In this document: piece by piece, positions 9,001 through 64,000 of the stretch | Numbering within the stretch: position 1 is the stretch's first letter | Layout of the letters: each line of letters begins with the position of its first letter | From: Paenibacillus sp. FSL M7-0420 | Lineage (GTDB): Bacteria > Bacillota > Bacilli > Paenibacillales > Paenibacillaceae | Assembly: GCF_038002345.1 (NCBI RefSeq) | Contig: NZ_JBBOCJ010000001.1 | Location: 2,728,001 to 2,792,000, forward strand | Reading direction: 5' to 3' | Length of the DNA: 64,000 bases | Notes under the pieces: model-generated | What the model was told of the DNA's origin: nothing | Databases searched by the model: none | What the model saw: only the letters and a program-made list of their open reading frames with translations | Program-made: the position numbers and the translations under genes

Positions 9001-9939
9001 ATGAACAAACAAACCATGGGTATTCATCATATCACCGCGATTGTCGGGCATCCGCAGGAGAATATGGACTTTTATGCAGGCGTACTGGGGCTGCGGCTGG
9101 TGAAGCAAACGGTCAATTTCGATGATCCGGGAACGTATCATTTCTACTTCGGCAATGATGGCGGGAAGCCGGGAACCATTATTACCTTCTTCCCATGGGC
9201 GGATGCGTACCAGGGTAAGATCGGCGGGGGCCAGGTTGGCGTTACTTCGTATGTGATTCCGGCCCAGGCGATGGCGTTCTGGAGAGAGCGGCTCACGGCA
9301 TTCAAGGTGGCTTACACAGAGATGGAGCGGTTTGGCGAGCAGTACCTGGAATTCGATGATCCGCACGGCCTGCATCTGGAGCTGGTGGAACGGGAGGCGG
9401 GTGAGCGTAATGAATGGACCTTCGGCGGAGTAACGCCCGAGGTGGCGATCAAGGGCTTCGGCGGCGCGACGCTGCTGTCCACTCATCCGGAACAAACCGC
9501 TGAGCTGCTGGAGAAGGTGATGGGACTTACATTCGTGGGGCAGGAAGGCGATGTCGCCCGCTACCGCTCGGCTGCAGATCTGGGCAATGTGATTGAGCTG
9601 AAGGTGACGGCTGTACCGCGTGGTGAAATGGGGGTTGGCACTGTCCACCATATTGCCTGGAGAGCGAAGGATGACCAGGATCAGCTTGAATGGCAGGATT
9701 ATGTGCATGATAATGGATATGGGGTAACGCCGGTGCAGGACCGAAATTATTTCAACGCTATCTACTTCAGAGAGCATGGGGAGATTCTGTTCGAGATCGC
9801 TACCGATCCTCCGGGCTTCGCTCATGATGAAACGCCGGAGACGATGGGGACCAGCCTGATGCTGCCGGAACAATACGAGCCGCACAGAGCAAAGATTGAA
9901 CAAGTTCTGCTGCCGGTTACTGTAAGAGCGCTTGACTAA
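9001..9939 (+). CDS. Ring-cleaving dioxygenase of the MhqO/MhqA glyoxalase family
   Basis: A 312-residue cytoplasmic protein built of two vicinal-oxygen-chelate (glyoxalase) modules. The first begins GIHHITAIVGHPQENMDFY and the second starts near residue 154 (GFGGATLLSTHPEQTAELL). Candidate metal ligands are His8/His9, the HHIAWRAKD histidines (about residues 217-218) and Glu in ILFEIATDPPG (about residue 265). The family includes hydroquinone- and catechol-responsive dioxygenases (MhqA, MhqE, MhqO). AGGAGG precedes the ATG. The operon partner is a flavin reductase-like gene 31 nt downstream, and two dyad operators lie just upstream, so induction by quinone-type electrophiles is likely (inference). 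Confidence 0.88.
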   Translation: MNKQTMGIHHITAIVGHPQENMDFYAGVLGLRLVKQTVNFDDPGTYHFYFGNDGGKPGTIITFFPWADAYQGKIGGGQVGVTSYVIPAQAMAFWRERLTAFKVAYTEMERFGEQYLEFDDPHGLHLELVEREAGERNEWTFGGVTPEVAIKGFGGATLLSTHPEQTAELLEKVMGLTFVGQEGDVARYRSAADLGNVIELKVTAVPRGEMGVGTVHHIAWRAKDDQDQLEWQDYVHDNGYGVTPVQDRNYFNAIYFREHGEILFEIATDPPGFAHDETPETMGTSLMLPEQYEPHRAKIEQVLLPVTVRALD

Positions 9940-9970
9940 TCTGCTTTGACATTAAAAAGGAGGCATGAGC

Positions 9971-10564
9971 ATGATCCCTATTGATCCGCAGCAGGGCACC
10001 GAACGGGATAATTATAAGCTTCTGATCGGGACAATTATCCCGCGTCCGATTGCTTTTGTAACCACCTTGTCGGAGGGAGGGGTCTTGAACGGTGCGCCGT
10101 TCAGCTACTTCAATATCGTATCCTCCAATCCGCCGATGATCTCTATCTCTATTCAGCATGCCGGGGGCCAGTCGAAGGATACTGCACGCAACATTAAGCA
10201 AATGAAGGAGTTTGTGGTTCATATTGTGGATGAGCAGAATGTCGGACAGGTGAATATGACCGCCGCGCCTTTGCCGCCGGATCAGAGTGAGATAACCTTA
10301 GCCGGAATGACGCCTGTAGATAGCCTGCGCATTAAGGTTCCCGGCGTTCAGGAAGCGAAGGTGCGGATGGAATGTGTCCTTGAGCAGTGTCTGGAGCTGC
10401 CAAATACTGATCTATTGATCGGCAGGATCGTGCAGTTTCATCTGGACGAGGCGATCTACGAACAGGGGAGAATTAATCCGGTGGCATTAGGGGCGGTCAG
10501 CCGTCTGGCCGGGAATAACTATGCGGGGATCGGGGAGATTTTTGAGATTGAGCGGCCGTTGTAA
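9971..10564 (+). CDS. Flavin reductase-like FMN-binding protein
   Basis: About 197 residues of the flavin-reductase split-barrel fold: an N-terminal YKLLIGTIIPRPIAFVTTL strand pair, then GAPFSYFNIVSSNPPMISISI, the usual FMN-phosphate region, and DTARNIKQMKEFVVHIV. It probably binds FMN and reduces it or a quinone-type substrate with NAD(P)H. I chose the ATG at 9971 because AAGGAGG (9957-9963) is 7 nt upstream; the ATG at 9965 is too close. It is co-transcribed with the dioxygenase and followed by a strong terminator, so the operon has two genes. Confidence 0.85.
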   Translation: MIPIDPQQGTERDNYKLLIGTIIPRPIAFVTTLSEGGVLNGAPFSYFNIVSSNPPMISISIQHAGGQSKDTARNIKQMKEFVVHIVDEQNVGQVNMTAAPLPPDQSEITLAGMTPVDSLRIKVPGVQEAKVRMECVLEQCLELPNTDLLIGRIVQFHLDEAIYEQGRINPVALGAVSRLAGNNYAGIGEIFEIERPL

Positions 10565-10647
10565 CGGCTGTGCTGGTGAGCAGACGGTTAGCCGTTTCAG
10601 CGGGGGATAGCGGGCAATACAAGGACAGGTTATCACCTAAACAACAA

Positions 10648-10675
10648 AACCCTGGCGCAAGCGCCAGGGTTATTT
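10648..10675 (+). terminator. Intrinsic terminator of the dioxygenase operon
   Basis: AACCCTGGCGC and GCGCCAGGGTT form a perfect 11-bp stem with an AA loop, followed by ATTTAT. Confidence 0.85.
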
Positions 10676-10855
10676 ATGATTCAGGAAGTATTGCATACAA
10701 AGAAATAATATGCTAATGTTAGAAGACTGTTGACTATTTTTAAAAATCAGATCGGAGGTAACGCATCTTATTTATATTTTAATTATAGCAAAGGGACATC
10801 CGGTTTGTCAACCCGCCTGTTTGGGACTATTTCAAGAAAGAGGAGTGATCAGGTG

Positions 10856-13285
10856 ATGGAGAAGGTAAGCAGCTGGGAGCAGGAGCAGGAGTGGCTGGAG
10901 CAGGTGAAGGAGAAGCTGAAAGCGGGGATCGCTGAGCTGGAGCCGGAGGTCGGGCAGCTGAAGGAGCAGGCCACAGACATCCGCCGGAGATTCTGGGAAG
11001 AGGTAACGGTCAATACGAGTACGGAGGAGGATTTCGAAGAGAGCTTTTTCACCATTACCCAGCAGGACGCAGTCCTGTCAGAACGGGAACGCAGTCATGC
11101 GCGGAAGCTGCGGCAATGGAAGAATATGCAACGGCTGCTGCCGTCGCCTTATTTTGGGCGGATAGATTTTCATGAGGAGGGTCAGAAGGCTGTGGAACAG
11201 GTCTATATCGGAGTGTCCTCCTTCATCGAAGAGGATGGTCTGAGCTTCGTGGTCTATGACTGGCGGACCCCGATTGCGAGCCTGTACTACGACTATCCGC
11301 CGGGAAAAGCAGCCTTCGACACACCTGGAGGACGGATTAGCGGAACGATGGAACTGAAGCGGCAGTACCAGATCCGTGACGGTCAGCTCCAGCATTTGTT
11401 CGATTCTAGCGTTACAATCGGAGATGAACTGCTCCAGCAGGTGCTTGGCAAAGGCGCAGATTCACAAATGAAGAGCATCGTAGCCACGATTCAGGCCGAG
11501 CAGAACGCGATTATCCGTAACGATACCAGCCGGATGCTTATTGTGCAAGGAGCGGCGGGCAGCGGCAAAACCTCGGCAGCGCTCCAGCGCGTAGCCTATC
11601 TGCTGTACAAACACCGGGAGCGGCTCACGGCGGATCAGATCGTATTATTTTCCCCGAACCCGATGTTCAACAGCTATGTATCCACCGTTCTTCCGGAGCT
11701 GGGTGAAGAGAATATGCAGCAGACGACCTTTCAGGAGTATCTGGAAACGTGGCTGGGTCAGGATTACCGGATAGAAGATTCGTTCGATCAGATGGAATAC
11801 GTGCTTACCGCTCAGCAGGAAGAGGGTTATGAAGCCCGTCTTAAGGGAGTCGGATATAAGGCGTCGGAAGCCTTCCTCCGGGCACTTCAGGGTTATGCGC
11901 AGTGGCTGAAGCTGGAGGGGATGCTGTTCAAGGACATTTGCTTCCGGGACCGCGTGTTAATCTCGGGGCAGCAGATCAAGAGCAAGCTGTACAGCTATGA
12001 TCCTTCGATTCGTCTGCCGAACCGGGTGGAGCTGGTGCAGAAATGGCTGCTCACCGAGCTGGCGGGACTACAGAAGGAGGAGCAAGGGGCAGCCTGGGTA
12101 GAGGAAGAGATGAATTACCTCGACAATGACCAATATGCTGAAGTGCACGGTAAGCTGCACAGAGAGAAGGGCGTGTTCGACTTCGCGGAGAAATACCTTC
12201 GCCTGCAGGAGCTGCTGGTGCATAAGCGGGAGCAGGATGAAGGGGACTTCGATTACGCCGAGCGGGAGGAGGCGCTGCTGGGAGAGATGATCGTGAAGGA
12301 GCAGTTCAAACCGCTGAGACGGGGGATCAGGAAGTTCACCTTTATCGACATGGCCGGGCTCTACCGTCAATTGTTCAGTGATGAAACGGCCTACAGGGAA
12401 ATGACAGGTGAAGCGGAGGTACCGGAGCTATGGCCGGAGATCTGTGCGCAGACCCGGAAGATGCTGGATAGCGGGACACTCTGGTATGAAGATGCGACCC
12501 CGTATTTGTATTTAAAAGAGCTGATCGAGGGTGTGCGGACGAATACGCAGGTGCGGCATATTTTCGTGGATGAAGGCCAGGATTATTCCATGTTCCAGTA
12601 TGAGTTCCTCAAAAAGCTGTTTCCGCGTGCCCGCATGACGGTGCTGGGAGACTTCGGCCAGGCGATCTTCACGCAGGCGACGAATCTGTATGGAAGCAGC
12701 TCACCGCTGCTAAAGCTCTATGGAGAAGAAGAGACTAACCAGTTCCTGCTGGTCCGCAGCTACCGCTCGACCTTTGAGATTGTGGAGTTCACGAAGCGGC
12801 TGCTGCCCGGCGGCGAGGCGATTGTGGCTTTTGAGCGGAGGGGCCGGAAGCCTGTATTGGCTAAGCTGGACAATCATGAGTTGAGGGCGGAGCGAATCGT
12901 GAAAGATCTCGCGGAGCTTCAGGCTGAAGGCTATAGCTCCATCGCTGTGATTACGAAGACGGCCGCAGAGAGCAGAGAAACTTATGAGTGCCTGACGGCT
13001 CGAGGTAGCGCCCCGGAGCTGAAGCTGATTACAAAGAACACGCCAACTTTTGAAAAAGGAATACAGGTGATCCCTGCCTATCTCGCCAAAGGCGTCGAAT
13101 TTGACGCGGTGCTAATCTACGATGCTTCTGCGCAGACGTATCATAGGGAGAGCGAGCGGAAGCTTTTTTATACGGCATGTACTCGGGCTATGCACCGGCT
13201 GCAGTTGTTTACTGCGGGGGAGTGGACGCCGTTTGTCGGTGGGGTAGATGGGGCGTTGTATGAGCAGACAGTAGCTACGCTATAG
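10856..13285 (+). CDS. helD: HelD-like RNA polymerase recycling ATPase (UvrD/Rep superfamily)
   Basis: About 809 residues. The N-terminal 100 residues are a charged coiled coil, the arm that in HelD enters the polymerase secondary channel. Walker A GAAGSGKTSAALQR is near residues 232-245, and Walker B IFVDEGQDYS is about 290 residues later. Helicase motifs LVRSYRST and TACTRAMHRLQLF follow, so this is a superfamily-1A motor. HelD releases RNA polymerase from nucleic acids in an ATP-dependent way. GTG 10853 and ATG 10856 both suit the AGAGGAG at 10839-10845; an open frame back to 10730 has no ribosome site. A 70-bp scrap of a related sequence lies at 16189-16258. Confidence 0.85.
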   Translation: MEKVSSWEQEQEWLEQVKEKLKAGIAELEPEVGQLKEQATDIRRRFWEEVTVNTSTEEDFEESFFTITQQDAVLSERERSHARKLRQWKNMQRLLPSPYFGRIDFHEEGQKAVEQVYIGVSSFIEEDGLSFVVYDWRTPIASLYYDYPPGKAAFDTPGGRISGTMELKRQYQIRDGQLQHLFDSSVTIGDELLQQVLGKGADSQMKSIVATIQAEQNAIIRNDTSRMLIVQGAAGSGKTSAALQRVAYLLYKHRERLTADQIVLFSPNPMFNSYVSTVLPELGEENMQQTTFQEYLETWLGQDYRIEDSFDQMEYVLTAQQEEGYEARLKGVGYKASEAFLRALQGYAQWLKLEGMLFKDICFRDRVLISGQQIKSKLYSYDPSIRLPNRVELVQKWLLTELAGLQKEEQGAAWVEEEMNYLDNDQYAEVHGKLHREKGVFDFAEKYLRLQELLVHKREQDEGDFDYAEREEALLGEMIVKEQFKPLRRGIRKFTFIDMAGLYRQLFSDETAYREMTGEAEVPELWPEICAQTRKMLDSGTLWYEDATPYLYLKELIEGVRTNTQVRHIFVDEGQDYSMFQYEFLKKLFPRARMTVLGDFGQAIFTQATNLYGSSSPLLKLYGEEETNQFLLVRSYRSTFEIVEFTKRLLPGGEAIVAFERRGRKPVLAKLDNHELRAERIVKDLAELQAEGYSSIAVITKTAAESRETYECLTARGSAPELKLITKNTPTFEKGIQVIPAYLAKGVEFDAVLIYDASAQTYHRESERKLFYTACTRAMHRLQLFTAGEWTPFVGGVDGALYEQTVATL

Positions 13286-13292
13286 ATCTAAG

Positions 13293-13325
13293 AAGGCCTC
13301 TCCAATTCAATGGAGGGGTCTTTGC
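13293..13325 (+). terminator. Intrinsic terminator of helD
   Basis: GGCCTCTCCA and TGGAGGGGTC pair over 10 bp with two wobble pairs and an ATTCAA loop; TTT follows. Confidence 0.7.
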
Positions 13326-13431
13326 TTGGAAGTTGGATTAGCAGATCAAATTGTACAACTCCCGGAAAAGATGCATAGTCATAGCGGCAGTTCCCATGGT
13401 AGACTTTAGAAAAATATTTAGGGGGATATAA

Positions 13432-13968
13432 ATGCGTCGAGGTGTTGTTCTATTATTAATGATTGTGTTGCTTACTGCCTGCGGGTCATCAAACAAAGGA
13501 TTATCCACAGATGATCTTGCAATTGTGAGAGTAACTGATGAAAAACAAATTGTAAGCTACGGTATGAGCCGTGCGTTAGCAGAAAAGGTGCTTGGAGAAG
13601 GTGAAGAAGATGGTAATACAAACTTTTTTAATTATGAGAGTGGTATAAGGATATTTTACCGGGATAATGCTGTAGTGTTTATCTATATGGGCGAAGATTC
13701 TAAAGGTGTCTACAAGACTGTACAAGGTGCTGAGATTAATATGAACCAAGATGATTTGAAAAGAATATACGGTAAAAATAATTTTATAGAACATGAAGGA
13801 ATAGTTTCGGCCTATAGATATGATTCGATAAACAAAAAATATCTTACCGATTTTGAAGTTGGCTCAGAAGAAAGAGATAAGTTTTATGAAATAGGTTTTG
13901 CTTATAAAGGTGGAGAGGTTAAGGGGATAGGTTTGGCAGATTACAAAGCTTTCGCTGATAGGAAGTAA
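13432..13968 (+). CDS. Putative lipoprotein, unknown function
   Basis: A 178-residue protein with a lipoprotein signal peptide (MRRGVVLLLMIVLLTAC; the lipobox cysteine is residue 17), so it should be anchored to the outer face of the membrane. The mature part has alternating strands and a segment YGMSRALAEKVLGEGEEDG that recalls SMN/BamE-like small adaptor folds, but the resemblance is weak. AGGGGGAT precedes the ATG. It stands alone between two terminators. Its codons are more A+T-rich than those of its neighbours, which could mean separate acquisition. Confidence 0.75.
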   Translation: MRRGVVLLLMIVLLTACGSSNKGLSTDDLAIVRVTDEKQIVSYGMSRALAEKVLGEGEEDGNTNFFNYESGIRIFYRDNAVVFIYMGEDSKGVYKTVQGAEINMNQDDLKRIYGKNNFIEHEGIVSAYRYDSINKKYLTDFEVGSEERDKFYEIGFAYKGGEVKGIGLADYKAFADRK

Positions 13969-14001
13969 TACCAACGGATATCCCATAAAGAACTTCATAA
14001 T

Positions 14002-14031
14002 TAGCCCGCTGGCTTCAGCTAGTGGGCTTTT
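14002..14031 (+). terminator. Intrinsic terminator of the lipoprotein gene
   Basis: AGCCCGCTGGC and GCTAGTGGGCT pair over 11 positions with two wobbles and a TTCA loop, then TTT. Confidence 0.75.
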
Positions 14032-14124
14032 AAGCATAGACTTGCCTGGTCCGCCTATAAGAATGCAGTGAACGGCTCGGTAATACTTTTTTCATATCAA
14101 AACACTCGTTAAATGATATTTCAC

Positions 14125-14165
14125 CTATTAATAGTGGTTTGTTACGCTTAAATTACTATTAATAA
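14125..14165 (+). promoter_or_regulatory. Repeated CTATTAATA motif upstream of the aldo/keto reductase
   Basis: The palindrome CTATTAATAG at 14125-14134 recurs as CTATTAATAA at 14156-14165, exactly 31 bp downstream and abutting the ribosome site. This geometry suits a dimeric or tetrameric regulator. The LysR-type gene converging from downstream is one candidate, which is inference. Confidence 0.4.
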
Positions 14166-14177
14166 GGAGGTAAGAAG

Positions 14178-15167
14178 ATGGAATATCGGAAATTGGGTGC
14201 TAGCGGCTTATCGGTCAGTGAGATTGCTTTTGGCAACTGGATTACGCATGGGGCACAAGTGGATAATGACACCGCCAAAGCTTGTGTCCATGCTGCATTG
14301 GATGCGGGAATTACTACATTTGACACCGCAGATGTGTATTCGGATACGAAGGCGGAGACGGTGCTGGGGCAAGTCTTGTCAGGAGTGCGGCGCGAAAGCA
14401 TCGAGTTATGTACCAAGGTCTATCAGCCTACAGGAACAGGACCTAATGACCGTGGTCTATCCCGGAAGCATATTATGGAAGCTTGTAACTCTTCGTTGAA
14501 AAGGTTACAGACGGATTATATAGACATTTATTATGCCCATAGATTTGATAAAAAGGTTTCGCTGGAGGAGACCTTCCTGGCCTTCTCTGATCTGGTGCGT
14601 CAAGGGAAGGTTCTGTATGTGGGGATCAGCGAATGGACGGCGGAACAGATCACACAAGCCGCGGTGTTGGCCCGGGAGCTGAGGGTTCCTCTGGTGGCCA
14701 GCCAGCCGCAATATTCGATGCTATGGCGGGTAATTGAAGCGGAGGTTATTCAGGCTTCTGAGCGGGAAGGGATCGGGCAGGTTGTCTGGTCACCGCTGGC
14801 CCAAGGCATTTTGTCGGGAAAATATCTGCCGAATCAACCTGTCCCGCAGGGGTCCCGTGCTTCGACTTCAGCGGGTTCTCCGTTTTTTGAACGATTGGCT
14901 GGCCAGTGGCTGCACACAGAGGTTCTTACGGCTGTATCCCGGCTGTCCTCACTTGCACACGAGGCGGGGCTGACGCTTCCGCAATTAGCCATAGCATGGG
15001 TGCTGCAGAATCCGCAGGTGTCGGCTGCAATCATTGGGGCATCCAGACCAGAGCAGGTACAAGAGAATGTGAAGGCTTCGGGGGTGCTTCTTGAACCTGA
15101 TTTGCTGAGTGAGATCGACAGAATATTAGAGGGACTGGTTGAGCGTGATCCTGCAAAAACCGGGTGA
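14178..15167 (+). CDS. Aldo/keto reductase (Kv-beta-like)
   Basis: A 329-residue NADPH-dependent reductase of the AKR superfamily. The catalytic tetrad is visible: Asp and Tyr in FDTADVYS (about residues 52 and 55), Lys in ELCTKVY (about 84) and His in YYAHRFD (about 124). The C-terminal IIGASRPEQVQENVKA forms the nucleotide-phosphate site. The length and the WSPLAQGILSGKYLP motif place it with the Kv-channel beta-subunit-like/YghZ branch, which reduces small carbonyls. AAGGAGG precedes the ATG. It converges on a LysR gene, and the two are often functionally linked in such pairs. Confidence 0.88.
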   Translation: MEYRKLGASGLSVSEIAFGNWITHGAQVDNDTAKACVHAALDAGITTFDTADVYSDTKAETVLGQVLSGVRRESIELCTKVYQPTGTGPNDRGLSRKHIMEACNSSLKRLQTDYIDIYYAHRFDKKVSLEETFLAFSDLVRQGKVLYVGISEWTAEQITQAAVLARELRVPLVASQPQYSMLWRVIEAEVIQASEREGIGQVVWSPLAQGILSGKYLPNQPVPQGSRASTSAGSPFFERLAGQWLHTEVLTAVSRLSSLAHEAGLTLPQLAIAWVLQNPQVSAAIIGASRPEQVQENVKASGVLLEPDLLSEIDRILEGLVERDPAKTG

Positions 15168-15190
15168 GTAACGCTGTCCGCTCACCTTTC
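15156..15190. terminator. Short hairpin between convergent AKR and LysR genes
   Basis: GGTGAG (15163-15168) and CTCACC (15181-15186) can pair. On the minus strand the stem is followed by TTTTT. It may serve both genes, but the stem is short. Confidence 0.35.
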
Positions 15191-16073
15191 ACCTGGAATT
15201 ATGCTCTTGTAAAATCTCTATAAATGCAGAGAGGATGGCCTGATTCGTATCCGTTCTCCAGGCAGCGTAGAAGGGAACAGGCGGCGCATTTTCTTCGAAG
15301 GGTCTGAACACGACCCCGCTGCGCTGGAAGACGGAAACTGAAGAAGGGACAATGGAAACCCCCAGGTTCGCTGCCACAAGGTTAACAATGGTATACATCT
15401 GCACGGCTTCCTGTACAACCTGAGGGTAAACATCATGCTCAGCACAGAAGCCCATAATCAGATCATGAAAAGGAAGGCCGTGCTTACGCGGAAAGAAGAC
15501 AAAAGGCTCAGAACGCAAAGCGGACACTGGCAATGCAGGAAGCTTGGCCAGCGGATGTTGATCAGGCAACACGGCAACCAGAGTTTCGTTGATCAGGCTG
15601 CAATGACTAATGTTCTTGGCCGGCTCAATGAAGCGAAGGAATCCAATATGGATGTTGCCGTCATGCAAGGCCTGCCATTGCTGGGCAGAAGTCATCTCCA
15701 GCAGGTTCAGCTGTATTTGAGGGAACCGTTGCCGGAAGATTTTGAGCACATCGACCATGATGCCGCCCTCTGCTGAACCGATGAAAGCTATATTTAAATG
15801 TCCAATGATGCCTTGGCTTGCCAGTTGTACCGTTCGAATAGACCGCTCCAGTTGAGATAAGATCCGGGTGGCTTCCTCCCAAAAAACAGATCCCGCTGGT
15901 GTGAGGCGGACTTGACGTTTGTTCCGTTCAAACAGCTTCACGCCAAGCTCTTGTTCCAGCGCTTGAATCTGCTGAGTCAACGGAGGCTGTGTCATATTTA
16001 ATTTCTCTGCGGCACGATGGAAATGAAGCTCTTCCGCCACCGCAACGAAGTATTGTAATTTTCGTATATCCAT
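15189..16073 (-). CDS. LysR-family transcriptional regulator
   Basis: A 294-residue regulator with an N-terminal winged helix-turn-helix (MDIRKLQYFVAVAEELHFHR, then AAEKLNMTQPPLTQQIQALE, residues 1-60), a linker helix, and a two-lobed periplasmic-binding-like effector domain from about residue 90. It should bind DNA as a tetramer and respond to a small aromatic or carbonyl-type ligand. It points toward the aldo/keto reductase gene, and the two ends are 21 nt apart. No divergent partner is present: its own upstream region is the scrap-containing 16074-16385 gap. Confidence 0.9.
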   Translation of the reverse strand: MDIRKLQYFVAVAEELHFHRAAEKLNMTQPPLTQQIQALEQELGVKLFERNKRQVRLTPAGSVFWEEATRILSQLERSIRTVQLASQGIIGHLNIAFIGSAEGGIMVDVLKIFRQRFPQIQLNLLEMTSAQQWQALHDGNIHIGFLRFIEPAKNISHCSLINETLVAVLPDQHPLAKLPALPVSALRSEPFVFFPRKHGLPFHDLIMGFCAEHDVYPQVVQEAVQMYTIVNLVAANLGVSIVPSSVSVFQRSGVVFRPFEENAPPVPFYAAWRTDTNQAILSAFIEILQEHNSR

Positions 16074-16142
16074 TGTTGTGGTCCTCTTTTCCTACAGATA
16101 AAGCTAGTATAGCATAAGGGGTAGGATCGGCATGTATACTGC

Positions 16143-16190
16143 GAAGCACCGCAGATGAATCTGGGGACAGTCAGATACTATACGCAGATA
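16143..16190 (+). pseudogene. Fragment of a MerR-family gene (related to the gene at 16986)
   Basis: These 48 bases align without gaps to 17031-17078 inside the downstream MerR gene, with about 7 mismatches. They cover codons for DPQMNLRTVRYYTQI, the recognition helix. The frame does not continue. It joins directly to a helD-like fragment. Confidence 0.7.
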
Positions 16191-16258
16191 TCCGCCGGGA
16201 CACGCGGCCTTCGACACACCGTGAGGACGGCTCACCGGCACGATGGAGCTGAAGCGGA
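16189..16258 (+). pseudogene. Fragment of a helD-like gene
   Basis: About 70 bases align with 11294-11363 in helD (codons for YPPGKAAFDTPGGRISG and MELKR), including the shared blocks TATCCGCCGGGA and GCCTTCGACACACC. Frame-disrupting changes are visible (ACCGTGAGG in place of ACCTGGAGG). It begins within 2 nt of the end of the MerR fragment, so the two form one chimeric remnant. The rest of 16074-16385 shows no gene. Confidence 0.7.
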
Positions 16259-16385
16259 GGGATTAGTAATTTGATTGAAATGTAAATTGTCGAAAAAGTT
16301 AGAAATATGTAAATATAGGTATATACAAATATCTAAAAAAGTAGTAATATTCTCCTGTGAAATAATTACCATGGGGGGATTTGGA

Positions 16386-16733
16386 ATGTTTGCAATGGGT
16401 CTAATTGGTGGTATTACTGGTATTATCGCCTCACTCTTAGCGATGGCTATCGGAGGCGTTGATGCTGCTTTTTCGGATAGTGGGACTTCAAGTATTACAG
16501 GGTTGGCAGTTTCTGCGTTACTATTCAGTATTTTGGGAATAGTTGGTTCTGCGTTCTCTAAAAGCAAGCCAAAACTAGCTGGATATCTTATGTTGGTTAG
16601 TGGTGTAGCTGGGGCTATCAGTATTTCGTTGTTCTACGTTCTTTCAGGAGTACTACTTATCGTGGCTGGATTCATGGGAGTTTTAAGTAAGAAGAAAGCT
16701 GGAAATTCCACAGTTCCTCCTGTATTTGAATAA
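16386..16733 (+). CDS. Small DUF4064-like membrane protein
   Basis: About 115 residues with three or four hydrophobic helices. It begins MFAMGLIGGITGIIASLLAMAIGG, followed by a glycine-rich turn, then helices at about 40-60, 65-85 and 85-105 and a short basic tail. This layout matches small DUF4064 membrane proteins of Bacillota, whose role is unknown. I chose ATG 16386 because GGGGGGA lies 6 nt upstream; an open frame back to 16275 has no ribosome site and a non-membrane leader. It is A+T-rich and monocistronic. Confidence 0.65.
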   Translation: MFAMGLIGGITGIIASLLAMAIGGVDAAFSDSGTSSITGLAVSALLFSILGIVGSAFSKSKPKLAGYLMLVSGVAGAISISLFYVLSGVLLIVAGFMGVLSKKKAGNSTVPPVFE

Positions 16734-16789
16734 GTACAGAACAATTGTGGAAATTTAAAATTATAAATTATACAGTTTGGATTTTTTTT

Positions 16790-16830
16790 AAAAAAGCCTA
16801 TCAACCAGTTAAGGTTGGCTGGCTTTTTTC
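16790..16830 (+). terminator. Intrinsic terminator
   Basis: AAAAAAGCC...AACC and GGTT...GGCTTTTTT form a stem interrupted by a small internal bulge, with a T-run. The flanking A-run would let it work in both directions. Confidence 0.8.
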
Positions 16831-16905
16831 TTTTTGTAATTAGGACCTATCAATCTTTTACCTCTGAACTCCAGCAATATCCGGATCTCACGTAAAGTGA
16901 GAATA

Positions 16906-16934
16906 TTGACATTCTTCATGTCTTACACTAAACT
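16906..16934 (+). promoter_or_regulatory. Sigma-A promoter of the MerR operon
   Basis: TTGACA at 16906-16911, a 17-bp spacer and TAAACT at 16929-16934. The spacer is of ordinary length, unlike promoters activated by MerR proteins. Confidence 0.6.
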
Positions 16935-16961
16935 GTAACAAATACAGTTAACTGTAACAAA
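16932..16961 (+). promoter_or_regulatory. Operator-like repeats at the MerR operon start site
   Basis: ACTGTAACAAA occurs at 16932-16942 and again at 16951-16961, flanking the perfect 12-bp palindrome ACAGTTAACTGT (16944-16955). The cluster overlaps the -10 and the start of the transcript, a position that suits repression, probably by the MerR-type product of the first gene (inference). Confidence 0.5.
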
Positions 16962-16985
16962 AATTCCGTAAGGAAGGAGAATCCA

Positions 16986-17405
16986 ATGAATACCTACACC
17001 GCGAAGCAGTTGGCTGAAGTGCTACAGAATGAAGATCCGCAGATGAATCTGCGGACGGTCAGGTATTATACGCAGATCGGGATGTTGCCGCCGCTGGAAC
17101 TGGTGGGCAATAAGAGGGCGTATACAGATAGTCATTTGCATTATTTACGGGCGATCCTTGTATTAACCAGGAGCGGCGAGACGTTGGCCTCGGCCCAAGA
17201 GAAGTTAGCCGGACTGACGATGGACGAAATCATGAAGCTGGGCGATAACCTGCGGCTTTACCAATCGGATCAGATGCTCCAGAGTGAGCTGCATGTTGTT
17301 AGTGAGGATGTCATTCTCTCCGTTAGTCCGCGCATCTCAACGGCGCTGAAGGAGAAGATGCTTGAGACGATTACTAGACTACTTCAAGAGGAGGGGCAGG
17401 TATGA
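16986..17405 (+). CDS. MerR-family transcriptional regulator
   Basis: A 139-residue protein. An N-terminal MerR helix-turn-helix runs from YTAKQLAEVLQ to LRTVRYYTQIGMLPPLE and wing RAYTDSHLHYLRAILVLTRSG (residues 3-65), followed by a short helical tail rather than a large ligand domain. The tail has no cysteine cluster, so a metal sensor is unlikely. GAAGGAGA precedes the ATG. The gene overlaps the next by 4 nt (ATGA), so they are coupled. It probably controls its own operon through the repeats around 16932-16961. Confidence 0.85.
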   Translation: MNTYTAKQLAEVLQNEDPQMNLRTVRYYTQIGMLPPLELVGNKRAYTDSHLHYLRAILVLTRSGETLASAQEKLAGLTMDEIMKLGDNLRLYQSDQMLQSELHVVSEDVILSVSPRISTALKEKMLETITRLLQEEGQV

Positions 17406-57173: not shown

Positions 57174-57965
57174 ATGACGAACAGCTTATTAGTGGTATGC
57201 CTGTTGACTCTGATTATTCATACAGCGGAGACATTGTCGTATTCGGTGCGGTTTGCGGGAGTGAAGCTGAACAAGATCGCTATCGCCTTATCCCTGACCG
57301 GAATTATCGTGCTGGTCTCCAGAACCGCAAATATGGTACAAGGTCCCTTAACGGCGAAGTTCGTAGATTATGCCAAAGCTGACGACAGCTTCCCGCTGCT
57401 CAACTATCTGCGGATTATTATGCTGGCTTCTTCACTGGGGACATTGATCGCGATTGCGTTGTTTCCAACCTTCGTAGGACTGTTCGCAAGAGTGATCTCC
57501 AAGCTGGAGATCGAAGGATCTATCCCTAAGCTGCTGACGAGTGTAACGGTCAGCCAGCTCAAGAATACGCGCAAATATATCCGCAGACCGAAGGTCAGGC
57601 TGAGCAGCTTCCGTTATCTTGGAATTCCCAAACGCTTCATCGTGATGAATGTCTTCGTGACGGCCTTCTACACGGTAGGCGTGTTATCCTCGATGTATGC
57701 GGCCAAGCTGTTGCCGGCGTTCAGCACCACTGCTTCCCAGGCATCGGGCCTGATTAACGGGATAGCAACGATCCTGCTGACGGTGTTCATCGATCCGCAG
57801 CTGGGAATCATTACGCACAAGGCAACCGAGAATGCGGAATACCGTGACCAGCTCGGGAAGATCTATGTACTCCTGATGGGCTCGCGCTTCCTGGGATCAC
57901 TGCTGGGCCAAGCCCTGCTGGTACCGGGAGCCTTCATCATCACCTGGCTGGTGAAGCTGCTCTGA
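57174..57965 (+). CDS. amj: Lipid II flippase of the Amj family
   Basis: A 263-residue polytopic protein with about six helices. It begins MTNSLLVVCLLTLIIHTAET, carries LSYSVRFAGVKLNKIAIALSLT, and continues through VSRTANMVQGPLTAKFVDYA. This matches Amj (YdaH) of Bacillus subtilis, the alternate lipid II flippase that replaces MurJ and is induced by envelope stress through SigM. Sequence agreement appears to run over the full length. The ribosome site is weak (GGAGATGAG). It converges on the coiled-coil secreted protein gene with 23 nt between. Confidence 0.85.
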   Translation: MTNSLLVVCLLTLIIHTAETLSYSVRFAGVKLNKIAIALSLTGIIVLVSRTANMVQGPLTAKFVDYAKADDSFPLLNYLRIIMLASSLGTLIAIALFPTFVGLFARVISKLEIEGSIPKLLTSVTVSQLKNTRKYIRRPKVRLSSFRYLGIPKRFIVMNVFVTAFYTVGVLSSMYAAKLLPAFSTTASQASGLINGIATILLTVFIDPQLGIITHKATENAEYRDQLGKIYVLLMGSRFLGSLLGQALLVPGAFIITWLVKLL

Positions 57966-59111: not shown

Positions 59112-60113
59112 ATGCAGCTTAGACATGTGAAAATAAAAGGAACAGGCAAATATTTGCCGGAGCGTGTAGTCAGTGATGCAGAGCTTGATCAGATCCTTGG
59201 CACAACACCGGGCTGGGTGAACAAAATCACCGGCGTCGGCACCCGCCATTATGCCAATACAGATGAAACCGCCTCCTTCATGGGCGCAAGAGCTGCTGAA
59301 GCGGCCCTCGCCGATGCAGGCCTCAGCTTCAGTGAGGTCGATTGTCTGGTGTGTACGAGCGGAACCAAGGAGCAGCCGCTGCCGAGTACCGCCGTGTTCA
59401 TTCAGCAGGCCATGGGGCAGGCGGATTCCGGTGTGCCGGCTTTTGATATCGATGCGACTTGTCTCAGCTTTCTGGTGGGGCTTGATGTAATGTCCTACAT
59501 GGTGGAGGCGGGCAGATATAAGAATGTGCTGCTGGTGGCCACTGAGATTGCATCTGTGGGGCTGAACTGGCAGGATAAGGAGAGCTCGGCCTTGTTCGGT
59601 GACGGAGCGGCAGCGGTGGTGATCGGACCTGCGGAGACCGGTGATTCCTCGCGGATACTCCACGCTTCGCTCAAAACCTACAGCAGCGGTGCGCGTTATT
59701 CGGAGATTGCCGGGGGCGGGACCAGACTGCATCCCCAGAATTATACAGCTGAGGATGCGCTGCCTTATCTGTTCCATATGGATGGCCAGGCTATATTCCG
59801 CAAAGCGTCCAAGCTGCTTCCGGATTTCATTGCAGACATGCTGAGCGCCACAGGCAATAAGATGGACGACTTCTCGCTGGTTATTCCCCATCAGGGAAGT
59901 GCAATGGCGATGCGTCTCCTGCGTAAAAAGCTCGGTATTGCCGAGGACCGCTTCCTCGACAACACCGCTGGCCATGGTAATACGATTGCAGCGTCTATCC
60001 CGATGGGGCTGCATGAAGCGATCCGTCAAGGCCGGATATCGCGCGGAGAGCGGATCATGCTGATCGGCACAGCTGCAGGGCTGTCTCTGGGAGGCATGAT
60101 TATTGAGTACTGA
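59112..60113 (+). CDS. KAS III/OleA-like condensing enzyme
   Basis: A 333-residue thiolase-fold enzyme. The catalytic triad of the FabH group is intact: Cys117 in DIDATCLSF, His260 in VIPHQGS and Asn290 in GHGNTIAAS. The N-terminus KIKGTGKYLPERVVSDAEL and the GDGAAAVVIG motif fit a KAS III-type enzyme outside the core FabH group. By family it would join an acyl thioester to malonyl-ACP, to a second acyl group, or transfer an acyl chain. First gene of a five-gene operon whose members overlap, so its product is probably used by the ligase, reductase and hydrolase that follow. The ribosome site is modest (GGGAGATGC). Confidence 0.88.
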   Translation: MQLRHVKIKGTGKYLPERVVSDAELDQILGTTPGWVNKITGVGTRHYANTDETASFMGARAAEAALADAGLSFSEVDCLVCTSGTKEQPLPSTAVFIQQAMGQADSGVPAFDIDATCLSFLVGLDVMSYMVEAGRYKNVLLVATEIASVGLNWQDKESSALFGDGAAAVVIGPAETGDSSRILHASLKTYSSGARYSEIAGGGTRLHPQNYTAEDALPYLFHMDGQAIFRKASKLLPDFIADMLSATGNKMDDFSLVIPHQGSAMAMRLLRKKLGIAEDRFLDNTAGHGNTIAASIPMGLHEAIRQGRISRGERIMLIGTAAGLSLGGMIIEY

Positions 60114-61320
60114 GGCCCGGCGTATTCTGATTACCGGCGGACGCGCCCCGGTAGCCCTGGAGCTGGCAAGGCTGTTCAAGGCTGCGGGCCACCGGGTATA
60201 CGTGGCGGAAAGTGCTGAGTATCATCTGTGCCGGGTATCCTCTGCCGTTGAGGCCAGCTTCCGGGTGCCTGCCCCAAGGCATCACCCGCAGGCATATGTC
60301 CAGCGGCTGGCTGCGTTAACGGAAGAACTGGGCATTCACTGCCTGATTCCCACCTGCGAGGAGATCTTCTATGTCTCTGCCGGTCTTGAGCATCTGACGG
60401 GGTGCCGCGTACTTACGTCAGAACGAAGTATTCTGGCCGGGCTGCACCATAAAGGGGAGTTCATGGTCCTGCTCCGTTCGCTCGGCTTCAAGGTCCCGGA
60501 CACGGTGCTGATCAGCAGTGCAGAAGAATGGCGGAGAGCCGTGAAGCAGGCAGCGGAGAGGGGGGAGCAGCGGGTCTATAAGCCTGCGTACTCCCGCTTT
60601 GCCTCTAAAGTCATTCTTCCGGGTAAAAGATCCGCTTCAACTAATCCGCATAGTCTTGCTCTAGGGGAAGCAGAGCCTCCAGCCGGACTATCGGCCGGGG
60701 CTCCCTGGGTGTCCCAGGAGTACATTCAAGGCAGAGCTGTTTGTACGTACAGCATTGTTCATGACGGCACAGTTGTGGCGCATGCAGCGTACGACAGCAG
60801 GTACAGGACGGGGCGCAGCGGGGCAAGTGTGTATTTTGAACCGCTGGAGCATCCTGCGGCTCTGGAATGGGTACAGCGGTTCGCCGCAGCAACCGGCTTC
60901 AGCGGCCAGATCGGATTCGATTTCATCGAACCGGAGAACGGGATGCTGTATCCGATTGAATGCAATCCGCGCGCTACAAGCGGTATTCATCTGTTCACGC
61001 CGGAGGAAGGGCTGACGGAGGCGCTGCTCAATCCCGGACCGCTCATGCAGAGCGGAACAGTCATTGTCCCGCGTTCAGCCCGCACAGCCATGCTGACGCT
61101 GCCCATGCTGGGCTGCGGACTGAAGCCGGGACCCGGGGGCTTCCGCAGCTGGCGGCAAGCGTTGCTTGGAGCAGCGGATGTGGTCTACCGCAAGGATGAC
61201 CGCCGCCCTGCGCGCGAGCAGTTCCGCATAGTATACGCCGCCTGGAAGACAGCCCGGCGGCATCACATCTCGATTACAGAGGCGTTAACTGAAGATATAG
61301 AATGGAATGGTGAAGCATGA
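60103..61320 (+). CDS. ATP-grasp family ligase
   Basis: A 405-residue protein. The N-terminal Rossmann-like pre-ATP-grasp domain starts ILITGGRAPVALELARLF. The ATP-grasp core has VYKPAYSRFASKV (the ATP-binding lysine), QEYIQGRAVCTYSI and, at the Mg2+ site, GFDFIEPENGMLYPIECNPRATSG (cited in part). It should join a carboxylate to an amine or thiol nucleophile through an acyl phosphate. The TTG start at 60103 is 8 nt after GGGAGG and lies inside the KAS gene (11-nt overlap). The acceptor is unknown. An insertion near residues 185-205 is rich in Pro/Ala. Confidence 0.85.
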   Translation: MSTEARRILITGGRAPVALELARLFKAAGHRVYVAESAEYHLCRVSSAVEASFRVPAPRHHPQAYVQRLAALTEELGIHCLIPTCEEIFYVSAGLEHLTGCRVLTSERSILAGLHHKGEFMVLLRSLGFKVPDTVLISSAEEWRRAVKQAAERGEQRVYKPAYSRFASKVILPGKRSASTNPHSLALGEAEPPAGLSAGAPWVSQEYIQGRAVCTYSIVHDGTVVAHAAYDSRYRTGRSGASVYFEPLEHPAALEWVQRFAAATGFSGQIGFDFIEPENGMLYPIECNPRATSGIHLFTPEEGLTEALLNPGPLMQSGTVIVPRSARTAMLTLPMLGCGLKPGPGGFRSWRQALLGAADVVYRKDDRRPAREQFRIVYAAWKTARRHHISITEALTEDIEWNGEA

Positions 61321-62309
61321 CCAAAGCGCTGGTAACAGGTGCAACCGGATTTCTTGGACGGCATACCGCCCTGAGGCTGGCCCGGATGGGCTGGGAGGTT
61401 TACGCGCAGGGACGCAACCCGGAGCTGGGGAAGCAGCTGGAGCAGGAAGGTGCAGTGTTCCTGGCCGGGGATCTGCGTGACCCGGAGACTGCCTATAGCT
61501 TTTGCCGGGGAATGGATGTGGTGTTCCATTGTGCAGCATTGTCGTCACCCTGGGGGAAGTACAAGGAGTTCTATACTTGCAATGTGGAGGCTACAAGCCA
61601 TATCGTAGAAGGGTGCAAACGTCATGGCGCAGGAAGGCTGGTTCATATCTCCACGCCCAGTGTGTATTCCAGCCAGCGGCCCCGCTTCGGCATCCGGGAG
61701 AGTGATCCGCTTCCCGGGCGGCCGGCCAATGCCTATGCCGCAACGAAGCTGATTGCCGAGCAGATCGTCCGGCAGGCTTCAAGCGCTGGCCTTACCGCCT
61801 TCATGCTCCGGCCCAGAGCCATATTCGGCCCGATGGACAATGCCTTGTTCCCCCGGCTGCTGGCAGCGAATGAGAGCAAGGGGGTGCCGCTGATGAATGG
61901 CGGACAGGCCAAGCTTGATCTCACCTGCGTAGAGAATGTAGTCGATGCCATGCTGCTCTGCTGTGAAGCCCCGCTCTCTGCTTCCGGCAGCGTCTACAAT
62001 ATTACCAATGGTGAGCCGTTAAGGTTCGAAGAGCTGGTCACCCGGCTATTCTCACTGCTCGGGCTGCCGCTGCACACCCGGCGATTGTCCTACCCGGTAG
62101 CTTATACCGCAGCGGCCCTAATGGAGGGGATCTACAAGGTGCTGCCTATTCCGGGTGAGCCGCTGCTGACCCGTTATTCTGCAGCCGCACTCGGCATCTC
62201 CCAGACACTGGATATTACACTGGCCCGCGAGCAGCTGGGTTATCAACCGCGTATAACAACAGACGAGGGACTTTGTGCCTTCGCAGAGTGGTGGAGGGAA
62301 CAGCAATGA
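61317..62309 (+). CDS. Extended SDR, 3-beta-HSD/OleD-like reductase
   Basis: A 330-residue NAD(P)-dependent enzyme. The cofactor loop GATGFLGR spans residues 8-15 and the catalytic pair is Tyr140 and Lys144 in NAYAATK, with Ser/Thr at 112-113. The C-terminal half has the RPRAIFGPMDN substrate-side motif of the 3-beta-HSD/NSDHL/OleD group, which reduces beta-keto acids or steroids. In the Ole pathway OleD reduces the beta-keto product of OleA, so the neighbour KAS-type enzyme is a logical supplier. It overlaps both neighbours by 4 nt. Confidence 0.87.
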   Translation: MTKALVTGATGFLGRHTALRLARMGWEVYAQGRNPELGKQLEQEGAVFLAGDLRDPETAYSFCRGMDVVFHCAALSSPWGKYKEFYTCNVEATSHIVEGCKRHGAGRLVHISTPSVYSSQRPRFGIRESDPLPGRPANAYAATKLIAEQIVRQASSAGLTAFMLRPRAIFGPMDNALFPRLLAANESKGVPLMNGGQAKLDLTCVENVVDAMLLCCEAPLSASGSVYNITNGEPLRFEELVTRLFSLLGLPLHTRRLSYPVAYTAAALMEGIYKVLPIPGEPLLTRYSAAALGISQTLDITLAREQLGYQPRITTDEGLCAFAEWWREQQ

Positions 62310-63160
62310 TTACAGAAATTCCAGTTGGATTATCTATACTGTCTGCGGGCTATTGCCTGCATCCCGAGCGTCTGACGCTGCGTGGAGGCACACTGAAGCC
62401 GGTTGCCTTCCCGGCGGGCTATGCCCTGATCCGGCATCCGCAATACGGACCCATCCTGTTCGATACGGGCTACAGTGCGCGTTTCTTCGAGGAGACAGCA
62501 AGTCTGCCAGCCTCTCTATACCGCAAGATCACTCCGGTTGTCTATAGGGAGGAAGAGAGTGCTGCGCGGCGGCTGCAGGCAGGCGGGATATCGCCGGAGG
62601 AGGTGCGGTATGTGGTACTGTCGCATTTTCATGCCGACCATATCGGCGGGGTACGGGATTTCCCGCAGGCGCAGTATATTTATCTGCAGAAATCTTACGA
62701 TGCCGTAAGCGGGCTGGGTCCGGTGCGGGCGACGAAGGCGGGATTTCTGCCCGGGCTGCTGCCGGAGGATTTCAAGCTCCGCTCCATCCCTGTGGATGAA
62801 GCCACGGCGAAGCGTGCGCTGCCGCCAGGCTTCCCGTTCACAGAAGCCTATGATCTGCTTGGAGACGGCAGCCTGCTGGCGGTTGAGCTGTCAGGCCATG
62901 CCGCCGGGATGATCGGCGTATTCGTCTCCACCGGCGAGCATGATTATCTGCTCTGCGCAGATACAGTCTGGTCGAGCCGGGCGTTCCGGGAGAACCGCAA
63001 GCCGCACCCGGCAGCAGGCTTGATCATGTCCAGCCGCACAGAATACCACCGCAATTTCGAGCGGCTGCGCCAGCTGCATGAACAATTTCCTAAGCTTCGG
63101 ATTGTGCCCAGCCATTGCCGCGAGGCGCTTGCGCACTGGGGAACGGGAAGTGTGACATGA
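62306..63160 (+). CDS. MBL-fold metallo-hydrolase
   Basis: A 284-residue metallo-beta-lactamase-fold enzyme. The metal motif LSHFHADHIGG gives His107, His109, Asp111 and His112; further ligands are His in ELSGHAAG (about residue 202), Asp in LLCADTVW and His in VPSHCRE. It resembles the N-acyl-homoserine lactonase/AttM-like group more than true beta-lactamases, so an ester, lactone or thioester substrate is likely. ATG 62306 makes the ATGA overlap with the reductase; the frame is open back to 62273 but inside that gene. Confidence 0.87.
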   Translation: MITEIPVGLSILSAGYCLHPERLTLRGGTLKPVAFPAGYALIRHPQYGPILFDTGYSARFFEETASLPASLYRKITPVVYREEESAARRLQAGGISPEEVRYVVLSHFHADHIGGVRDFPQAQYIYLQKSYDAVSGLGPVRATKAGFLPGLLPEDFKLRSIPVDEATAKRALPPGFPFTEAYDLLGDGSLLAVELSGHAAGMIGVFVSTGEHDYLLCADTVWSSRAFRENRKPHPAAGLIMSSRTEYHRNFERLRQLHEQFPKLRIVPSHCREALAHWGTGSVT

Positions 63161-64000
63161 AGCGCATCAGACTGGTGATCACCCATTATATTCTTACCAA
63201 GTGGGGCAGACGCTGGAAGAACCGGGCAGCACTCGAGCAGTGGCAGGAGAAGCGTATCCGGCTTCATGTAGAGAAGGTGAGGCAGCGCTCGGAATTCTAC
63301 AGGGAGCTGTGGGCAGGTATTCCGTCCAAGGAATGGCGGAGTTTCCCGGTGATCGGGAAGCCGGAGATGATGGGGAATTTCGATCAGCTCAATACAGCGG
63401 GCATTACGAAGGAGCAGGCTTTTGCAGAAGCCTATGAAGCGGAGAACAGCAGGAACTTCAAGCCTACGCTGCAAGGCGTCACCGTCGGGTTATCCTCGGG
63501 TACCTCCGGCAACCGGGGGATTTTTCTCGTTGGCGAAGAAGAGCAGGCCGCCTGGACCGGTACGGTGCTGGCAAAGCTTTTGCCGGGTGGACTATGGAAG
63601 CGGGCGAGCATTGCATTTTTTCTGAGGGCAAATAGTAATTTGTATGAATCTGTGAAGCAGGGACGGCTGCAGTTCCGGTATTTCGATCTGCTGGAGCCGC
63701 TACCGCAGCTCTTGGCCCGTATGAAGGAATACCAGCCGGATATCTGGATTGCACCGCCGTCCATGCTGCGTCTGCTTGCCGGGGCACAGCAATCGGGTGA
63801 GATGAATCTGCATCCCCGCCGGATCATTGCGGTTGCGGAAGTGCTTGACCCGCTCGACCGGCAGCAGATTGAGCAGACCTTCGGGCAGAAGGTCCATCAG
63901 GCTTATCAGTGTACCGAGGGCTTCCTCGGTGCGACCTGCAGTCACGGGACGCTGCATCTTAATGAAGATATTGTACATATCGGCAAAGAAATGCTGGATG
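63157..64000 (+). CDS. F390-synthetase-like adenylate-forming enzyme, cut by window end
   Basis: The frame is open from ATG 63157 (ATGA overlap with the MBL gene) to the last base, 281 codons, so the C-terminus is missing. VGLSSGTSGNRGIF is the adenylate-forming P-loop motif (S/T-S-G-T-S-G), and YQCTEGFLGATC is the motif that follows the acyl-adenylate site in phenylacetate-CoA ligase/F390 synthetase-like (PaaK) enzymes. It would activate a carboxylic acid with ATP. Such F390-synthetase-related proteins are common in Paenibacillus genomes beside KAS III-type genes. No acyl-carrier gene is visible within the window. Confidence 0.82.
   Translation, partial: MKRIRLVITHYILTKWGRRWKNRAALEQWQEKRIRLHVEKVRQRSEFYRELWAGIPSKEWRSFPVIGKPEMMGNFDQLNTAGITKEQAFAEAYEAENSRNFKPTLQGVTVGLSSGTSGNRGIFLVGEEEQAAWTGTVLAKLLPGGLWKRASIAFFLRANSNLYESVKQGRLQFRYFDLLEPLPQLLARMKEYQPDIWIAPPSMLRLLAGAQQSGEMNLHPRRIIAVAEVLDPLDRQQIEQTFGQKVHQAYQCTEGFLGATCSHGTLHLNEDIVHIGKEMLD

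Follow-up and report, generated by a model that had tools for sequence, protein, structure and literature searches.

The ketosynthases CorB (corallopyronin) and MxnB (myxopyronin) fuse two acyl chains at the end of large polyketide synthase (PKS)/non-ribosomal peptide synthetase (NRPS) lines. Mycolic acids are assembled by FadD32, Pks13 and CmrA and end in a glycosylated product, and the PqsABCDE system employs a trio of ketoacyl-(acyl carrier protein) synthase III (KAS III), metallo-beta-lactamase-fold (MBL) enzyme and CoA ligase, with no short-chain dehydrogenase/reductase (SDR) and no lipid add-ons known. Here we describe an operon that begins near the end of a 64,000-nt stretch (bases 2728001-2792000, hereafter the window) of the 7.67 Mb genome of Paenibacillus sp. 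FSL M7-0420. Its genes encode a KAS III-type ketosynthase (A), an ATP-grasp enzyme (B), an extended SDR (C), an MBL hydrolase (D) and a PaaK-like adenylate-forming enzyme (E), followed past the window end by a GNAT-type transferase (F), a PgsA-like protein (G) and a second SDR (H). Genes A to E constitute a true unit whose products act together; its constant part is the four genes A, C, D and E, the other genes being exchangeable add-ons. The product is probably an uncharacterised lipid. An original prediction, made from the window alone, had described a five-gene overlapping operon that resembles, but does not equal, the Ole/beta-lactone pathway and had suggested a small acyl-derived metabolite joined to an amine.

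Conservation of the operon

Among 148 sampled genomes of the host's family, TIGR02304 (the family of E) and PRK07204 (that of A) each exceed their cut-offs in 52. The same 52 genomes make up both sets, and in every one of them A precedes E by 1.9-4.8 kb on one strand. The original prediction had taken the overlaps between the genes as a sign of joint action, to be given up if the genes were rarely neighbours in related genomes; they are neighbours as a rule. Using tblastn within 8 kb of E at the best 80 of 584 confirmed relatives, a sample biased to kin, we found A at 80 loci, B at 79, C at 77, D at 78, H at 65, F at 50 and G at 2, with A, C and D all near E at 75 and the 11-nt overlap of A and B retained at 51. 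The five loci without the full core lack either C (L096, L100, L108) or D (L102, L138), and both genes are shortened fragments in L095, which is of the same species as L096. Of 40 further regions, 35 hold the complete core (17 of 20, the exceptions being L047, L048 and L057, and 18 of 20, the exceptions being L199 and L200). Apart from the query genes, the most frequent gene family reaches 19 of 100 loci, mostly within one clade. At the level of the class, 67 of 398 genomes (21 of 145 genera) have an E above its cut-off, and at the level of the phylum 9 of 398; we therefore call the distribution of E patchy. The best matches among named genomes come from Paenibacillus, the E of P. silagei being 94% identical.

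Several loci depart from this arrangement. A Brevibacillus-type group (L095, L096, L100, L200) looks as if an internal deletion had spread in it. Between B and E these loci have no C or just a piece of it, and L095 also has a shortened D; A, B, E, F and H were found. At L047 and L048 the TIGR02304 member is distant (33% identity), the gene behind it resembles a membrane acyltransferase by eye, and A, C and D are absent. A second A-type KAS III lies 2.6 kb upstream of the operon in L114, and a second H-like SDR lies upstream on the opposite strand in L065.

Kinship of the ketosynthase

Gene A scores 441.4 bits with PRK07204 (cut-off 402) and 269.4 with the KAS III model PRK09352 (cut-off 249), and falls short of the fabH model TIGR00747 at 254.6 (cut-off 292.1); its E. 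coli and L182 counterparts remain below the PRK07204 cut-off of 402, at 333.4 and 309.6. By single sequence and by profile alike, its nearest solved chains are CorB (4yuc) and 4v2p, a structure labelled KETOSYNTHASE only, which we take to be MxnB. The A-family profile gives 331.8 bits with 4v2p, up to 271 with FabH, 171 with 3h76 (presumably PqsD) and at most 113.9 with 5vxd, 3row and kin, chains labelled 3-oxoacyl-[ACP] synthase III that we take to be OleA. Cys117, His260 and Asn290, singled out in the original prediction, are invariant in all 26 aligned rows (24 operon KAS III and two FabH). Rows for alignment and trees were hand-picked for spread, and two trees were built with two or three other KAS III of the host genome and no OleA. 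In the tree that omits L004 (another host KAS III) and ten operon loci of the other tree, L203 included, the operon KAS III part from both FabHs used with 100/100 support, with CorB/MxnB on the operon side; comparing CorB/MxnB inside versus beside the operon KAS III by the approximately unbiased (AU) test gave p-AU 0.341.

Another KAS III of the host genome, situated between genes read by eye as plsX and fabD, scores 453.7 against the fabH cut-off of 292.1. Given this separate enzyme and the tree split, we rejected A as the housekeeping FabH; the case that the original prediction had feared, an A within FabH and no other FabH in the genome, does not apply.

In OleA, glutamate 117 is followed by proline, is kept in all but two of the OleA proteins considered there and is essential in the X. 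campestris enzyme, according to an excerpt of PMC7064751. At that place A has Leu90-Pro91 and thus lacks the Glu-Pro pair. Ile or Leu stands there in 128 of 128 KAS III copies (127 by script, the remaining one printing Ile), a count that includes repeats, since some loci lie in genomes sampled twice; the place itself was located through the FabH Phe-Pro column and its known counterpart in OleA, in an alignment of operon KAS III and FabH rows only.

The partner enzymes

NCBI family names attach no pathway to the genes: A is a 'beta-ketoacyl-ACP synthase III', B a 'hypothetical protein' and E an 'F390 synthetase-related protein'. Among the core enzymes, C finds its best NCBIfam match in the OleD model, at 239.6 bits, far below the cut-off of 580, and OleD models match 17 of 17 C rows. 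Its nearest solved chain by profile is sterol-4-alpha-carboxylate 3-dehydrogenase (152.9 bits), which by single sequence comes second (84.8) to MoeE5 (91.0). D keeps its metal-site residues, H107, H109, D111, H112, H198, D219 and H270 being invariant in 17 rows. D does not classify as an N-acyl homoserine lactone (AHL) lactonase, as the scores for AttM (92.9 bits, cut-off 390), AhlS (55.7, cut-off 475) and AiiA (42.9, cut-off 375) all fall under their cut-offs. E scores 502 bits with TIGR02304 (cut-off 251.9), has phenylacetate-CoA ligase 4r1l as its nearest solved chain (81.8 bits), and keeps residues 113-118 (SSGTSG) and K428 invariant in 12 rows.

As for the add-ons, B reaches 366.9 bits with the ATP-grasp model PRK06849, under the cut-off of 406, with E286 and N288 invariant in 26 rows. 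Sequence searches of solved structures gave no convincing match for B or F, and we therefore turned to fold prediction. The predicted fold of B (predicted local distance difference test, pLDDT, 91.0) lies near a carbamoyl-phosphate-synthase-like protein, glycinamide ribonucleotide (GAR) synthetase, PylC and PurK, and the predicted model of the L068 copy of F has a double-GNAT, FemX/MprF fold.

Layout and extent

The five reading frames A to E are all open at the coordinates of Table 1, with starts assigned mechanically, and the successive overlaps A/B, B/C, C/D, D/E and E/F measure 11, 4, 4, 4 and 13 nt. The frames and the 4-11 nt overlaps of the predicted five-gene operon are thus confirmed, but the operon is longer than predicted. 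Extension beyond position 64000, through locus L005, which prolongs the window with an identical shared stretch (window position = L005 position + 50000), added F, G and H, with gaps of 34 nt between F and G and 15 nt between G and H.

Table 1. Genes of the operon in window and L005 coordinates.
Gene	Product	Window position	L005 position	Strand	Family and role
A	KAS III-type ketosynthase	59112-60113	9112-10113	+	NCBIfam PRK07204; core enzyme
B	ATP-grasp enzyme, TTG start	60103-61320	10103-11320	+	PRK06849-like; add-on
C	Extended SDR, OleD / sterol-4-carboxylate dehydrogenase kind	61317-62309	11317-12309	+	Core enzyme
D	MBL hydrolase, lactonase-like	62306-63160	12306-13160	+	Core enzyme
E	F390 synthetase-related PaaK-like adenylate-forming enzyme, 438 aa	63157-64000, onward	13157-14473	+	TIGR02304; core enzyme
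F	GNAT-type transferase	Past window end	14461-15615		Add-on
G	PgsA-like	Past window end	15650-16252		
H	Second SDR	Past window end	16268-17140		

Behind H, after a gap of 55 nt, comes a gene for a DUF4265 protein and, 25 nt further on, one for a signal peptidase; this pair is found at the locus in the nearest species only and was therefore left out of the unit. The PgsA-like G was rejected as a core gene, being present at 2 of the 80 loci plus L061 and the present genome and being one of five such genes in this genome. A gene for Amj, the alternate to MurJ, lies about 1.1 kb upstream of the operon (window 57174-57965), again in the nearest species only (L061, L065-L069). A promoter scan gave 2 sites against a mean of 5.5 in shuffles, and there were 12 terminator-like sites (shuffles: mean 7.7, standard deviation 2.6); neither result was used as evidence.

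A constant core with exchangeable cassettes

The core also occurs in rhizobia, Burkholderiales and Rhodobacterales. In a plasmid collection, 83 records hold a relative of E; 14 were opened, and the complete core is united in 12 of these, in two cases with B interposed. The genes that accompany the core vary by lineage: (i) Firmicutes mostly have B, often with F and H. (ii) Paraburkholderia has B, F and a Rieske protein behind the core, and the Shinella, Rhizobium and Roseateles records have F and the Rieske protein, with B on the opposite strand. (iii) Ketogulonicigenium and Paracoccus have a divergent sulfotransferase. (iv) Fusobacterium (L178), a Bacilli member with a 2.6 Mb genome (L182) and a locus of the host's own family (L050) share an H-like SDR, a family 21 glycosyltransferase and a protein of about 211 aa before the core, L182 having additionally a family 28 glycosyltransferase. 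(v) Bacilli with genomes of about 2 Mb (L045, L184, L185, L188), which from neighbour genes read by eye we think are streptococci, have a family 28 glycosyltransferase, its frame split in L188, and then C-D-E-A. (vi) E. coli and Burkholderia stagnalis have PAP2, a fatty-acid hydroxylase and a desaturase behind A-C-D-E. Most of the add-ons hint at a lipid, being family 21 and 28 glycosyltransferases, fatty-acid hydroxylase, desaturase and PAP2, or an ATP-grasp enzyme plus a FemX/MprF-fold transferase.

The E. coli unit A-C-D-E-PAP2-hydroxylase-desaturase sits between narI and a tRNA-Tyr pair (L173, L181) and was found in 672 of 5426 complete genomes (671 covering at least 80% of the query), counted without lineage typing. 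The record of L173, labelled plasmid, resembles a piece of chromosome (narGHJI, galU, hns). The protein of about 211-215 aa (L182:13409-14044, minus strand; L178:6211-6858) neighbours the family 21 glycosyltransferase at L050, L178 and L182, and a Pfam search with the L182 copy gave no match. The other two opened plasmid records are Pseudomonas megaplasmids (L174, L204). One of them has nothing but E and an ATP-grasp-like gene, and in the other the genes are scattered, L204 having further core genes dispersed among hypothetical genes besides E and a B-like gene; these are perhaps remnants or a re-used set.

Proposed pathway and alternatives

We tentatively favour the reading that the operon encodes a stand-alone lipid pathway, in which acyl chains are joined, released, reduced and activated and then receive a polar head supplied by the add-ons. 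A lipid core product best explains two features. Most of the swapped genes encode enzymes that tailor lipids or serve head groups. The operon itself holds no PKS and no carrier protein, the nearest of 26 PP-binding domain matches in the genome lying 270 kb away, and 100 Firmicutes loci (open reading frames of at least 80 aa) showed no conserved exporter next to the core. For substrates, step order and product, we infer the following scheme. A would load an acyl chain on Cys117 and, like CorB, join a second acyl chain to it, giving an alpha-substituted beta-keto acyl product that D would release from its thioester. C would reduce the beta-ketone to a hydroxyl, and E would adenylate the carboxylate and pass the acyl chain to a polar part, which the add-on genes may provide in lineage-dependent form. 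In the Paenibacillus version, B may form an amide with an amino acid, F may pass on another amino acid or an acyl group, and H may act as a second ketone reductase. The core would thus build an alpha-branched beta-hydroxy acyl chain, and its polar head, based on amino acids in the host, could be exchanged. Such a chain-joined acid fits because A is kin to ketosynthases that join chains and C is kin to enzymes of alpha-substituted beta-oxo or beta-hydroxy acids; an amino-acid head is suggested in the host operon by B and F. The acyl-derived product of the original prediction is likely on our reading, and its attachment to an amine is plausible for the host version, although both genes concerned are add-ons and do not belong to the core. 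A bolder form, in which A-C-D-E makes a mycolate-like, chain-joined alpha-branched beta-hydroxy lipid without a megasynthase while phyla swap cassettes for amino acid, sugar, sulfate or hydroxylated and desaturated chains, strikes us as somewhat unlikely.

The same genes could make a lipid without chain joining, if A used malonyl-ACP and a CoA- or ACP-bound acyl chain in the manner of FabH to give an unbranched 3-hydroxy acid, which E would activate before a head group is added. A keeps the Cys-His-Asn residues, passes the PRK09352 cut-off and, by the family profile, scores up to 271 bits with FabH chains. CorB and 4v2p nonetheless score higher and group with A, the fabH cut-off is missed, C most resembles the models of OleD and sterol-4-carboxylate dehydrogenase, and 3-hydroxyacyl-ACP is already made in normal fatty acid synthesis; we regard this route as unlikely. 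A small secreted signal or antibiotic, akin to the Pseudomonas quinolone signal (PQS) or a pyrone, is less probable again. It would draw on a PqsD-like KAS III, a PqsE-like MBL thioesterase and a PqsA-like PaaK-type aromatic-acid ligase, a trio that quinolone signalling employs, just as CorB serves an antibiotic pathway; 3h76 is among the chains matched by A, and PqsE gives about 25 bits. The nearest relatives, however, are not PqsD and PqsE, the add-ons are mostly lipid enzymes, and no conserved regulator or exporter family accompanies the core in the 100 Firmicutes loci, a TetR gene being present in Ketogulonicigenium and Paracoccus.

That the operon is a genuine Ole pathway leading to beta-lactones or olefins, in which the MBL enzyme replaces OleB and the PaaK-like enzyme replaces OleC, is very improbable, even though OleD models match every C row and are the best NCBIfam match of the host gene. 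The chains taken for OleA score 114 bits at most against 332 for 4v2p, and the glutamate kept in nearly all OleA proteins and essential in X. campestris (excerpt of PMC7064751) is replaced by Ile or Leu in every copy. OleB, an alpha/beta-hydrolase that decarboxylates beta-lactones, is absent from the families of A to H, where the hydrolase is the MBL enzyme, and an excerpt of PMC7158056 reports no ole clusters found in Firmicutes. On the OleA residue, the kinship of the ketosynthase, the missed OleD cut-off and the absent OleB, we rejected Ole membership. The original prediction was right to set the operon apart from Ole, but the likeness it saw is not supported beyond the SDR: A is nearer to CorB/MxnB and FabH, E is nearest to phenylacetate-CoA ligase, and D is no OleB. 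That unrelated genes share a transcript by chance is refuted by the identical presence in 52 genomes and a grouping conserved over three phyla, and can practically be dismissed.

Meaning and relation to described systems

The core is common to Paenibacillaceae and Bacilli with small genomes, to Fusobacterium, to several orders of proteobacteria and, through its seven-gene version, to roughly one eighth of the complete genomes of E. coli. If the core makes a lipid, the membranes of common bacteria may hold lipids of a kind that surveys have overlooked or not named, and the variety of add-ons offers a ready test of head-group swapping. Among the papers listed from the open-licence literature of PubMed Central (PMC), where absence is not proof, none dealt with the cluster or with the E. 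coli seven-gene unit; the enzyme kinds are known, and their combination and spread appear to be undescribed. In a different cluster, of fatty-acid genes in D. psychrophila, an excerpt of PMC2649909 gives an F390-synthetase-annotated gene a guessed role in glycerol attachment.

CorB and MxnB are the nearest solved relatives of A and share its side of the tree against FabH; they differ in setting, as the host operon has no carrier protein within 270 kb. The likeness to mycolic acid assembly is no more than an analogy, in which chains are activated and joined, a keto group is reduced and a polar head is fitted. The operon has no Pks13-like megaenzyme, and the H-like SDR of L182 reaches 97.5 bits with the mycolate reductase model, far under the cut-off of 380 and tenth in its list. 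PqsABCDE has the KAS III, MBL and CoA-ligase trio in common with the operon, at weak sequence kinship. The MprF and FemX aminoacyl-tRNA transferases share with F the double-GNAT fold of the predicted model, at 8-13% identity; F lacks an MprF-like membrane domain. The Ole pathway (OleA-D) likewise brings a condensing enzyme of the thiolase fold together with an OleD-like SDR, an adenylate-forming enzyme and a hydrolase within a single operon, whereas the present operon lacks the OleA glutamate, has an MBL enzyme for OleB, carries varied add-ons and uses a PaaK-type ligase, E having been set in that branch by its family and solved-chain match. We file the cluster as a discrete-enzyme acyl-condensing pathway distinct from Ole.

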